A stretch of DNA of 64,000 nt from Streptomyces tirandamycinicus. GTDB lineage: Bacteria; Actinomycetota; Actinomycetes; Streptomycetales; Streptomycetaceae. The position numbers and the translations under genes are program-made. The notes below the pieces were generated by a model, which was not told the DNA's origin, ran no database searches, and saw nothing but the letters and a program-made list of their open reading frames with translations. Below, in pieces: positions 43,857 through 48,442 of the stretch (positions within the stretch are counted from its first letter, which is position 1; each line of letters starts with the position of its first letter). The stretch is from assembly GCF_003097515.1 (NCBI RefSeq), contig NZ_CP029188.1, forward strand, positions 4,599,001-4,663,000, given 5' to 3'.

Positions 43857-45197
43857 TCAGGTGACCTGCGACGGTGGTGCGAAGGTCCGTGCCCGGTCGT
43901 ACAGGTCGCGGACCGCCGCGTTCTTCAGGTGAGGACGCAAGAGACCGAACATCGTCTTCACGCGCTCGTCGGCGCGGCCGGACTGCACCTTGGGGTAGTC
44001 GTCGAGGGCCTGGTGCCAGGTGGCGCAGGCCGCTTCCAGGTGGCCGAGTTCCAACTGCCGCTCTGCCAGCAGGCCACGACGGTGTACTCGTGTGCGCTGG
44101 TACACGCTGGGGCGAAGCCGGTCCGCTTGCTGCATGGCCTCGACGGCTCCGGCCTTGTCACCGAGCTCGTAACGTACCTGGCTGACGTGGTAGTTGAGTG
44201 AGGAGGAGTTGTACGAGCCGAACGCCTTTCCGCGTGACTCGGCGCGGTCCATGGCCGCCTCGGCGTCCCGGATGTAGCGCAGCGCGCCCGTACGGTCGCC
44301 GGTCTGCGCGGCGGCGTGCGCCTGCTGGCCGACGAGGAAGGCCAGCATCCGGGGGCCGGCTTTCGGGGAGGCGGCGGCAGCGGCGTCGGCCAGCTCCATG
44401 GCCTTCGCCCCGTGGCGGAGGTCAACTGCCTGGACACTCATGCCCCGCAGGGTGGTGCAGTACGTCAGGTGGTTCTCGGCCGCGCCCGCCAGCTCCAGGG
44501 CCTTGACGTAGTAGCGCTGCGCGAGACCGTGCAGCCCTTCGTCCACGGCCATGTAGCCGGTCAGGTAGAGCAGGTCCGAGGCGGCGGACAGCATCGCCTT
44601 GCGTACGTCCTCGGGTGCGTCGGCGCGCAGGTAGGAGGCCACGGTGTTGACCATGAACGAGGCCGCCATAGGACGTGCGTGACGGCCGCCGAACTCGTCG
44701 TCCAGCTCCGAGACACGCTCGGTCATGGCGACGACCATGTCCACTTCGTTCATGCCGATGCGTGCTGTGCGGCCGGACTGGACGGCATCTGCACGCCCGA
44801 CTACATCAGGCCAGCCGGGAATGGTGACGGCCACGGAGAACAGGCCGGCACCCAGGACACTGCGGCGGGACGGGTCCATATCCAGCCTCCCCAGGTCGAT
44901 CACCCCTTCCACGGTATCCGCACCGTCGGAGGAGCGATCGCGTGGAACGGGCAGCCCGGCCTCGGCATGGGTGACTGGGCGGCCGAGGCGGCGGGAGAGA
45001 GCTTCGAGGATGCATCCGCGCACCGCACCGCGGGGGATGGTGCCGCCGAGCCAGTGGCTCACCGCCGACTCGTCGTAGCGCAGAGGGATTCCGGTCTCGG
45101 TGCCGATGCGGTTGACGGCCCGCGCGAACTGGCGGTGAGTCCAACGGCTCTCGGTGAGCAGGCGCCCGAGCGCCACGTTCGGTTCGCGCTTGGCCAT
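43857..45197 (-). CDS. HTH/TPR transcriptional regulator of the candidate peptide cluster
   Basis: A 446-residue protein with an N-terminal helix-turn-helix (about 8-60; GRLLTESRWTHRQFARAVNR, YDESAVSHWLGG) and a long alpha-helical TPR-like C-terminus (about 150-440) with repeated ALELAGAAENHLTY- and AQTGDRTGALRYIRDAEAA-type units. A hydrophobic stretch (SVLGAGLFSVAVTIPG) links them. Regulators of this build are frequent in Streptomyces secondary-metabolite and peptide clusters and may respond to small peptides. It is divergent from the small genes and the candidate precursor. Confidence 0.85.
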   Translation of the reverse strand: MAKREPNVALGRLLTESRWTHRQFARAVNRIGTETGIPLRYDESAVSHWLGGTIPRGAVRGCILEALSRRLGRPVTHAEAGLPVPRDRSSDGADTVEGVIDLGRLDMDPSRRSVLGAGLFSVAVTIPGWPDVVGRADAVQSGRTARIGMNEVDMVVAMTERVSELDDEFGGRHARPMAASFMVNTVASYLRADAPEDVRKAMLSAASDLLYLTGYMAVDEGLHGLAQRYYVKALELAGAAENHLTYCTTLRGMSVQAVDLRHGAKAMELADAAAAASPKAGPRMLAFLVGQQAHAAAQTGDRTGALRYIRDAEAAMDRAESRGKAFGSYNSSSLNYHVSQVRYELGDKAGAVEAMQQADRLRPSVYQRTRVHRRGLLAERQLELGHLEAACATWHQALDDYPKVQSGRADERVKTMFGLLRPHLKNAAVRDLYDRARTFAPPSQVT

Positions 45198-45346
45198 GCC
45201 CTCAACTCCCCCTGCTCTTGCGAACTTTCAAGGCTTTCAAATCCTGACGCTGCGGCAACGGTACCGCTGAGCGTGGTCGTGCGGTTGCGTAGAGACAGCA
45301 GGCAACGGCGAGTCCTCGCCGCAGCCGTCGTCTGAAGGGCTGAGGG

Positions 45347-45574
45347 ATGAGAAGCGAAGCACGGGCCCGTCTGGCCCGGATGACCGAGGAACGGGGCATG
45401 GACGGGGTGTTGAGGATCAACACCTACGAGGGCGCGGACCTGCCACCGGGTTCGAGCCGGTTCTCGCCGTGTCTCTGCCCGCAGCACCGCAGTGCCACGC
45501 CCGAGTACGGCGCGGAGAAGCTGAGCGTCGCAGTACGCGAAGCCAACCAGCGCAGCCGTGGAGAGCGGCTGTGA
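45347..45574 (+). CDS. Hypothetical protein, 75 residues
   Basis: A small charged protein (MRSEARARLARMTEERGMDGV...) with a CLCPQH motif near the middle (about residues 42-47). No family is recognised. Its TGA overlaps the next GTG by four bases, so it is coupled to the membrane peptide gene downstream. Arrangement and codon use support a real gene. Confidence 0.6.
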   Translation: MRSEARARLARMTEERGMDGVLRINTYEGADLPPGSSRFSPCLCPQHRSATPEYGAEKLSVAVREANQRSRGERL

Positions 45575-45684
45575 ACCGGTTGGCCGCAGCCGTCGGCCGC
45601 TACGCCGGACCAGTCCTGATCATCACCATCTCGGTATCGGTCGGCTTCGTCCTGGGTGTCGCCGCCGCACCCACACCCACCTGA
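45571..45684 (+). CDS. Single-pass membrane micro-protein, 37 residues
   Basis: The GTG start overlaps the previous stop. The product is a short basic N-terminus (VNRLAAAVGRYAG), one hydrophobic helix (PVLIITISVSVGFVLGVAAA) and a PTPT tail. It could be a small membrane component such as an immunity or export accessory of the peptide cluster, but this is a guess from context. Confidence 0.55.
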   Translation: MNRLAAAVGRYAGPVLIITISVSVGFVLGVAAAPTPT

Positions 45685-47519: not shown

Positions 47520-48286
47520 CCAGCCCCGACACGGAAGCCGAGCACGTGGAAGCCACCAACCTCCTCTATCGCGATCCGGCACTCTACGACGTGGTCCAGT
47601 CCGACAGCACGAGCGCCGGAATGTGCCAGACCCTGATCGAGCTGCACCAGCCGGGCGCCAGGACCCTCGTCGACTTCGGATGCGGTACCGGCCGGGACCT
47701 GGAGATGCTCGCCAAGCGCTACGAGTGCATCGGTGTGGACCTTCAGCCCGGTCTGGTCGACTACGCCCAGCAGGCCCGGCCCGGACTGGACGTCCGTACC
47801 GGCGACATGCGTACCGTACGACTCGGCAAGCGCATGGACGTGGTGACCTGCATGGGCAACAGCCTCGCGTACGCGCACCACAACCACGATGTCGGCCAGG
47901 TCTTCGCCACCTTCGCCGCCCACGCCCAGCCAGGAGCGCTGCTCGTGCTGTGTTCCCCCGTCGCCCCGATCACCCGGACCGAGCCGACCACCGCCACGGT
48001 CGACACCCCGACGGGACCCGCGACCGTCACCATCCGCCACACGTGGGACCTGCGGACCCAGATCAACACCATGCACCGGCACTGGATGCTCCCCTCGGGC
48101 GACGAGGCCCGAGACGAGATCCGCAGGCGCGTCCTGTTCCCCCGGGAACTCGAACGCTACGCCGAGGGAGCCGGCTTCGAGGTCCTGGACATGCTCGACG
48201 GCGACGGCGACGGCGACGGCGACGGCGCAGGGGCAGGGCTGACCGGCCCCACCGTGTACACGGTGGCCCGACGAACGCCGCGGTGA
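47516..48286 (+). CDS. Class I SAM-dependent methyltransferase of the candidate RiPP cluster
   Basis: A 256-residue methyltransferase. The SAM-binding motif reads LVDFGCGTGRDLEMLA and the acidic loop CIGVDLQPGLVDYAQ. The GTG at 47516 overlaps the AsnB-like stop (GTGA); a GTG at 47546 with GGAAG upstream is an alternative. Close to the C-terminus lies a GDGDGDGDG run encoded by a hexanucleotide repeat. Tight coupling to the AsnB-like gene suggests that both modify the same peptide. It ends at a strong terminator. Confidence 0.88.
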   Translation: MTSPDTEAEHVEATNLLYRDPALYDVVQSDSTSAGMCQTLIELHQPGARTLVDFGCGTGRDLEMLAKRYECIGVDLQPGLVDYAQQARPGLDVRTGDMRTVRLGKRMDVVTCMGNSLAYAHHNHDVGQVFATFAAHAQPGALLVLCSPVAPITRTEPTTATVDTPTGPATVTIRHTWDLRTQINTMHRHWMLPSGDEARDEIRRRVLFPRELERYAEGAGFEVLDMLDGDGDGDGDGAGAGLTGPTVYTVARRTPR

Positions 48287-48402
48287 CCAGCGGTGCGAGC
48301 AACGGCACCAGCACCAGCCGCCCGGCTCTTGACTGCAGTAGCGCGTAGACCGGCTCGCGGTCCCGCGCGGCACACGCCGTAGCGGTCGCCGCGTACGCCC
48401 GA

Positions 48403-48442
48403 GGGCCCGGCCCCACGCGATCGCTCGCGTGGGGCCGGGCCC
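48403..48442. terminator. Terminator hairpin between the methyltransferase gene and kgd
   Basis: An 18-bp perfect stem (GGGCCCGGCCCCACGCGA at 48403-48420 with 48425-48442) and a 4-nt loop, between convergent genes. It marks the right end of the peptide cluster. Confidence 0.88.

Follow-up and report, generated by a model that had tools for sequence, protein, structure and literature searches.

A short peptide gene beside an AsnB-like enzyme gene

We analyzed a stretch of 64,000 nucleotides from Streptomyces tirandamycinicus (assembly GCF_003097515.1, contig NZ_CP029188.1, positions 4,599,001 to 4,663,000), hereafter called the window, which belongs to a genome of one contig of 7.29 Mb. Between positions 43857 and 48442 of the window lie six open reading frames (ORFs), and their positions, as given in a preliminary description made from the letters alone, were all confirmed from the sequence and with a gene caller. 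Three of them are the main subject here: a 39-residue peptide (45854..45973, + strand), a 490-residue enzyme related to AsnB (46047..47519, + strand), and a class I S-adenosylmethionine-dependent methyltransferase (47516..48286, + strand). In the peptide, residues 1-24 are taken as a leader and the core starts at K25. The codons of K25 (45926..45928, + strand) and D31 (45944..45946, + strand) delimit a motif of Lys, five residues and Asp (K-x5-D), in which K25 is the proposed lactam nucleophile and D31 the proposed adenylated carboxylate. The locus thus has an encoded precursor with leader and core beside a candidate modifying enzyme, as is general for ribosomally synthesized and post-translationally modified peptides (RiPPs).

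The preliminary description had all genes but the precursor coupled by 4-bp overlaps. GTGA overlaps of this length were found at two junctions only, between the 75- and 37-residue ORFs described below and between the enzyme and methyltransferase genes, while the 39-residue ORF is flanked by gaps of 169 and 73 bp.

Occurrence and coding constraint of the peptide

First, the pairing of peptide and enzyme was surveyed in a genus sample of 392 genomes, the window's own included. Some enzyme match was present in 76 genomes, many of these matches being distant or partial, and a full-length relative (at least 62% identity) in 20 (L001-L012 and L014-L021). The 39-residue ORF lay directly upstream of the enzyme gene in all 20 loci, intact in 19 and frameshifted in one, and the methyltransferase gene was present downstream in all 20. 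The constant adjacency of peptide and enzyme expected of a RiPP-like cluster was therefore borne out among the close relatives. No peptide was found in L013, with a truncated enzyme, or in L022, with a frameshifted one. A search from the peptide side matched 21 of the 392 genomes, namely the same 20 and G006. The latter holds a lone precursor remnant (L165, 3995-4105) and no enzyme match in its genome; the remnant retains K-x5-D and no longer has the tail, its end reading KMPGSGDNNGGR (last residues GSGDNNGGR). We count this peptide, decayed in its tail in the one genome without an enzyme match, in favor of the RiPP locus proposed below.

A second collection of 31 Streptomyces loci, with enzymes up to 96% identical and partly from the same strains as the genus sample, was also investigated. 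The peptide was intact in 26, frameshifted in one and absent from four: L048, at a contig edge, whose sequence begins 45 bases before the enzyme so that the peptide could not be seen, and L055, L059 and L061, with partial enzymes. Missing peptides went with damaged enzymes in L013/L091, L022/L090 and L055/L142, while in L060 the peptide was present and the enzyme damaged. L041 carried a one-base insertion within the peptide leader.

A letter search of all loci using only the leader gave 36 distinct DNA versions, of which 34 encode the core DKMPGGGDNNGDHC; the other two are a frameshift and the enzyme-less G006 remnant. Among 34 versions picked by their core string, and identical there in amino acids by construction, the third position varied in 5 of the 14 core codons. 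A chance ORF was considered and rejected in view of the matches in 21 of 392 genomes, the third-position changes and the one core shared by 34 of the 36. The peptide is therefore under coding constraint, which the preliminary description had named as a check on its RiPP proposal, and neither this check nor the one on adjacency refuted the proposal.

Upstream of the L050 enzyme, the precursor leader holds an in-frame repeat (GDLITGDLITGDLITG), so leader spacing may be flexible. L173 is a conjugative Streptomyces plasmid with regulator, peptide, enzyme and methyltransferase; its 39-residue precursor (3808-3927) is missing from the PLSDB gene table, which is stated to be incomplete.

The K-x5-D motif in a wider enzyme family

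Related enzymes, about 27-42% identical, were found in other Streptomycetaceae, Rhizobium, Bradyrhizobium, Mesorhizobium and Xanthomonas, mostly preceded by a short peptide ORF. As a second tier of the genus sample, we retrieved 20 loci, flanks included, whose enzymes are 32-42% identical, and 17 of them had a short upstream ORF with K-x5-D near its end. The remaining three were L077 and L080, with truncated or split enzymes, and L081, whose enzyme was 27-29% identical in a later comparison. In the family sample, 30 of 394 Streptomycetaceae genomes matched at 1e-25, in 4 of 17 genera, and a K-x5-D peptide was present in 15 of the 19 loci fetched (not in L134, L137, L142 or L148). The phylum sample gave matches at 1e-20 in 2 of 396 Actinomycetota genomes, both from the window's genus and one of them the window's own. 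A plasmid search returned 41 records, chiefly from Rhizobium and Bradyrhizobium. All 15 plasmid loci examined (12 proteobacterial, 3 Streptomyces) had an upstream ORF with K-x5-D; the gene table does not list that of L175, and where this ORF starts is uncertain.

We compared 14 distinct peptides, hand-chosen across types with L170, L134 and the G006 remnant left out. K-x5-D followed by a tail of 6-10 residues was present in 14 of 14, and the next-best Lys-Asp spacing in 4 of 14. Shuffled peptides gave the motif at 0.009-0.045 per peptide (2.5-3.9% for the proteobacterial ones), figures that are not simply to be multiplied because the clades are related. The motif was first recognized in Streptomyces, and the proteobacterial peptides were inspected only afterwards. 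Written with a hyphen after the Asp, the sequences read DKMPGGGD-NNGDHCSK in the window, KPQESSD-QGRFED in a clade with an exporter gene, KTSGSSD-GAKTYDTTAT and KFSGNSD-TNTERDEHE in clades with an acetyltransferase-like gene, KGGKPGD-MDKLDV in Rhizobium, KAPFPND-SANQGYL in Bradyrhizobium, KVRLPGD-SATLMYYL in Mesorhizobium, and KPYLGDD-SRWYSTQPGG in Xanthomonas. By eye, the Lys and the Asp are the sole core residues common to all 14 peptides, and the leaders differ between clades. The variable tail expected in the preliminary description was thus absent within the window clade, where 34 of 36 versions share one core, and appeared between clades as tails that vary while the Lys and Asp are fixed.

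The conserved Lys and Asp six residues apart suggest an undescribed family of ribosomal, enzyme-cross-linked peptides. RiPPs with an asparagine synthetase-like (AS-like) enzyme are already known, and the K-x5-D family is not categorically new. A literature search, judged by titles and the beginnings of abstracts and covering few subscription journals, returned no paper on this locus or family.

Several plasmid loci showed further features. On three Rhizobium plasmids (L171, 3600-6332; L181, 2658-5353; L183, 2621-5353), a 52-residue KGGKPGD peptide and an AS-like enzyme are encoded directly downstream of an acyl-homoserine-lactone synthase gene; in L171 and L183, rhiA is also nearby. The arrangement suggests a quorum-linked product of the K-x5-D family. 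On the Bradyrhizobium plasmids L176-L179, transposase genes surround the enzyme gene, whose product is annotated as hypothetical protein, and the 47-residue peptide is absent from the incomplete gene table. On the Xanthomonas sacchari plasmid L172 (6695-8668), an S9-family peptidase gene adjoins the enzyme gene, with an oligopeptide symporter gene on the opposite side; some lasso isopeptidases belong to the S9 family.

The AsnB-like enzyme

The enzyme matched PF00733 at 3.1e-6. Its N-terminus is Met-Leu-Ser, and a Met-Cys start was present in 0 of 19 aligned family members, in agreement with the AsnB homologue without N-terminal nucleophile that had been described before. Without a Met-Cys start, the enzyme is unlikely to draw its nitrogen from glutamine; the simplest nucleophile would be an internal amine. 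The residues of GGxDS and GxGGDE, which we take to be the ATP-pyrophosphatase motifs, were invariant (19 of 19). In a sequence profile comparison, the closest solved chain was beta-lactam synthetase (1.6e-5).

An AlphaFold2 prediction of the enzyme with the 19 family members gave a mean predicted local distance difference test (pLDDT) score of 88.4 and a predicted template modelling score (pTM) of 0.89. Over the whole chain, the predicted fold matched the hydroxyamidotransferase TsnB9 (7ylz; Z 22.3, 450 aligned residues, root-mean-square deviation (rmsd) 4.0), carbapenam synthetase (1q15; Z 21.4, 386 aligned, rmsd 3.5), AsnB (1ct9; Z 21.4, 387 aligned, rmsd 3.6) and beta-lactam synthetase (1m1z; Z 20.9, 371 aligned, rmsd 3.4). 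The enzyme is thus predicted to have an AsnB/beta-lactam-synthetase-like fold. Beta-lactam synthetase and carbapenam synthetase also lack a working glutaminase Cys, and like the reaction proposed below they form an amide within one molecule; however, their substrates are small molecules, and the Tyr of the beta-lactam synthetase GYGAD motif is not kept here.

According to PMC13060819, AS-like enzymes in RiPPs close lassos, amidate the C-terminus (TsrC, ScdTA) or form nitriles (PesC), and about 300 other RiPP-associated AS-like candidates have no known reaction. The enzyme could therefore amidate the C-terminus or form a nitrile there, since enzymes of this type are known to act on ribosomal peptides. 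However, TsrC, ScdTA and PesC modify the C-terminal carboxylate, whereas in the K-x5-D peptides the C-terminal residue and the tail length vary and the internal Lys and Asp are fixed. C-terminal chemistry is disfavored because of this variation. The absence of a Met-Cys start in all 19 members also speaks against it, although ammonia could serve instead. C-terminal amidation was rejected as the leading explanation on these two grounds, and we consider modification of the C-terminus very improbable.

In L070 the enzyme ORF is 639 residues long, apparently by C-terminal fusion to an acetyltransferase-like protein (tblastn, 49%).

Contact between leader and enzyme was modelled with artificial chains, in which the TGA of the peptide was read as Gly where peptide and enzyme are in frame. 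Leader residues 1-20 had a mean pLDDT of 92 and 85 in the predicted read-through chains, and residues 26-62 were below 50. In the chain model, short strands formed in the leader (7-8 and 13-14) and next to the conserved YPEPAxH segment of the enzyme (163-164 and 169-170), whereas the L001 enzyme modelled by itself had a helix at 162-164. These models are compatible with possible docking of the leader at the YPEPAxH region of the enzyme.

Search for lasso and graspetide components

The levels of similarity to lasso peptide systems were examined with profile models. PF13471, the family of the lasso B2 peptidase, had no match among the six cluster proteins, and it was undetected in 12 of 20 peptide-carrying genomes, the window's included. 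The same held for 8 of the 20 genomes that were taken from other clades of the second tier. No B1 RiPP recognition element, for which no genome-wide search was made, was found among the six cluster proteins. The window enzyme scored 19.3 bits against the lasso cyclase model NF033535 (cut-off 525). Its relative in L067 scored 28.5 bits against the albusnodin/ikarugamycin macrolactam cyclase model NF033561, far under the cut-off of 300.

Gene families recurring near the enzyme were surveyed among 310 called proteins from 31 loci in seven clades. Six families were present in at least 3 clades: the enzyme itself (30 of 31 loci), TPR regulators, acetyltransferase-like proteins, ATP-binding cassette (ABC) transporters and two unnamed families. 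None of the six had the look of a protease, as judged on the first 70 residues, and it is possible that the leader is trimmed by an unlinked protease.

The K-x5-D family resembles lasso peptides in its AS-like enzyme, its leader-bearing precursor, a likely Asp side-chain lactam and, in some clades, an acetyltransferase-like partner. However, no B1- or B2-type gene was recognized in the cluster, PF13471 was undetected in 20 of 40 carriers, the lasso cyclase models scored far below their cut-offs, and a Lys is fixed six residues before the Asp. A canonical lasso peptide was therefore rejected as the leading explanation, on the cyclase scores and the 20 of 40 carriers.

A lasso-like peptide made without a B2 peptidase has the most support among the alternatives. 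Another protease would cut before K25, so that this Lys becomes residue 1, its alpha-amine would join Asp7, and the tail would be threaded. The spacing of K25 and D31 is compatible with a ring of 7 (lasso rings join the alpha-amine to an acidic residue at 7-9), and such a ring followed by 6-10 tail residues is proportioned like a lasso peptide. Of the named cyclase models, a lasso one comes nearest to the L067 enzyme, and acetylated lasso peptides are known (PMC13352647, PMC9266682). However, that cyclase score is far too low, half of the carriers have no detected PF13471, the recurring families include nothing that looks like a protease, and the residue preceding the Lys varies (D, E, R, T, K, I, P, M). 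Closure through the alpha-amine also leaves the invariance of the Lys side chain unexplained. Loss of water is predicted for this closure and for that through the side-chain amine. We regard the lasso-like closure as unlikely.

Graspetides of the microviridin type share with the proposed product a leader-bearing precursor and amides from side chain to side chain, but they are made by ATP-grasp ligases. No ATP-grasp domain was found among the six cluster proteins, and a graspetide was rejected as the leading explanation for this reason.

Methyltransferase and exchangeable accessory genes

The methyltransferase (256 residues from a GTG start; PF13649 at 9.4e-13) is an accessory component. Its closest relatives in the PDB were sugar N,N-dimethyltransferases (3pfg, 1.6e-17), and it also matched the peptide N-methyltransferases CypM (1.7e-9) and YunM. 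No isoaspartyl-methyltransferase family was among its Pfam and NCBIfam matches.

The preliminary description had proposed methyl-activated Asp as one possible chemistry. In a related explanation, the methyltransferase would perform aspartimide or methyl-Asp chemistry with the AsnB-like enzyme as helper. The 4-bp overlap of the two genes and the D-N and N-G steps in the tail are in line with this. However, the protein resembles N-methyltransferases, and other clades keep enzyme and motif without a methyltransferase gene; activation of the Asp as a methyl ester is not favored for these two reasons. Aspartimide formation of the protein isoaspartyl methyltransferase type was likewise rejected as the leading explanation, since no such family was matched and the closest solved relatives are N-methyltransferases. 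Aspartimide or methyl-Asp chemistry is, in our estimate, the least probable of the alternatives.

The accessory gene differs by clade, being a methyltransferase, an acetyltransferase-like protein or an ABC exporter. The methyltransferase clade and the exporter clade are each set off by a supported branch. The acetyltransferase-like gene is spread over four separate clades, all supported, a distribution that may reflect gains or losses. The methyltransferase ORF was open in eight places without an intact adjacent enzyme (L061, L090, L091, L092, L095, L097, L142 and a second copy in L167) and broken in L093, L166 and L168. Persistence without an intact adjacent enzyme, together with presence beside all 20 intact ones, is as expected of a protective gene; deletion bias could do the same.

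The assignment of the Streptomyces acetyltransferase-like protein is weak (best Pfam match 4.9e-5 for 8 members, best PDB match 0.037). An extra Lys beside the motif Lys was present in 15 of 15 typed peptides from acetyltransferase-like loci (4 clades) and in 0 of 10 others (3 clades). Mesorhizobium L170, which has a GNAT gene and no such Lys, is a counter-case, and the tie between the second Lys and the acetyltransferase-like gene is no more than suggestive. For triculamin and lariocidin, acetylation is reported to serve self-protection (PMC13352647).

Proposed reaction

We favor a RiPP locus in which the AsnB-like enzyme adenylates D31 and K25 closes a side-chain lactam, and on balance we hold this to be probable. 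An ATP-driven Lys-Asp lactam on a leader-bearing peptide is favored because the peptide is associated with the enzyme and conserved with it, the Lys and Asp are fixed, the predicted fold is that of AsnB, and PF13471 is undetected in half of the tested carriers. The amide or macrolactam on an Asp that had been proposed earlier is therefore the likeliest chemistry, with K-x5-D supporting it and the bond itself inferred.

The 39-residue product would be the precursor, with leader residues 1-24 docking on the AsnB-like enzyme. The enzyme would adenylate the D31 side chain with ATP, and the side-chain amine of K25 would then attack D31 to give a K25-D31 isopeptide with loss of 18 Da. The ring would span seven residues, KMPGGGD, and leave NNGDHCSK as a short free tail. 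N-methylation of an amine or of the His of this product by the methyltransferase may follow, possibly for self-protection, and in sister clades the acetyltransferase-like protein might serve the same protection. An unlinked protease would remove the leader.

Several observations weigh against this proposal. The bound of 6-10 residues on the tail was set only after all peptides had been seen, and the peptides within a clade are related. The L170 peptide of Mesorhizobium, which is not in the count of 14, has a tail of 26 residues, and chance occurrences of K-x5-D were seen in other, unrelated ORFs upstream in L170 (75 residues from the end) and L175 (67 residues). In the loci L137 and L081 no peptide was found. 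The Tyr of the beta-lactam synthetase GYGAD motif, which has a catalytic role in that enzyme, aligns with a variable position (Ser306 in the window enzyme). In the other 20 of the 40 carrier genomes PF13471 genes are present, either on a different contig from the locus or at a distance of at least about 200 kb, and K-x5-D would also fit a 7-residue ring through the Lys alpha-amine after an upstream cut. Finally, L134 lacks K-x5-D and has its leader-like sequence on a carrier-like protein.

This L134 protein (4546-4971), judged carrier-like by eye, is encoded upstream of a family enzyme and ends in the leader-like sequence VFAGEPVLAVPALADRY; possibly the leader has moved onto a carrier protein. 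A carrier in this position accords with another explanation, in which the peptide would serve as a sacrificial scaffold. D31 would be coupled by the enzyme to an amino acid or a small amine, and the segment so modified would be freed as a small molecule. The nearly invariant core of the window clade (34 of 36 versions) also agrees with a scaffold. However, a scaffold leaves unexplained both the fixed distance to the conserved Lys and the ABC transporters of one clade, and we consider it quite improbable.

The Lys-Asp side-chain lactam can be extended to a class. Such a RiPP class, spanning Actinomycetota and Proteobacteria, would use an AsnB-fold ligase to form a Lys(i)-Asp(i+6) lactam before leader removal, with exchangeable genes for protection or export (N-methyltransferase, acetyltransferase-like protein, ABC exporter) and a quorum-sensing link in rhizobia. 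We put this extension forward tentatively, as plausible but less secure than the reaction at the window locus. If true, it would give some AS-like enzymes a definite, testable reaction with the simple rule K-x5-D. Side-chain lactams would then come from two enzyme folds, ATP-grasp and this one, the latter needing no leader peptidase. It would also suggest a product for the AS-like gene that lies beside an acyl-homoserine-lactone synthase gene on several Rhizobium plasmids.

Neighboring ORFs and inverted repeats

The remaining ORFs of the locus lie upstream of the peptide gene. An NsdA-family HTH/TPR regulator is encoded divergently (43857..45197, - strand) and matched NF053720 with 452 bits (cut-off 75; 3.1e-135). 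A TPR-regulator-like family was linked to the enzyme in 6 of 7 clades and 21 of 31 loci, and the NsdA-family protein is probably a local regulator. The 75-residue ORF (45347..45574, + strand) had no Pfam or NCBIfam match; it is kept in window-type loci, was seen only with window-type enzymes and had no match in L014-L021. The 37-residue ORF (45571..45684, + strand), which starts with GTG and contains a hydrophobic stretch, was found both in the sequence and by the gene caller, and was conserved in 39 of 43 window-type loci and in none of the clade with enzymes of 62-65% identity. Because no homologues of the regulator or of the 75- and 37-residue ORFs were found beside the enzymes of that clade, these three are not core parts.

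The strong terminator of the preliminary description was not recovered. At 48403..48442, between the methyltransferase gene and a converging gene, we found by eye an 18-bp perfect inverted repeat without a T-run, and a terminator scanner listed no terminator there. A 15-bp hairpin between the precursor and enzyme genes (45990..46023, + strand), also without a T-run, had been overlooked. The 82-nucleotide stretch with this hairpin folds at -48 kcal/mol (z -3.1). A stem-loop was predicted in all 13 peptide-enzyme spacers that were folded, three of them being unremarkable against mononucleotide shuffles (z above -2). The hairpin is probably a stabilizer of the mRNA or an attenuator.

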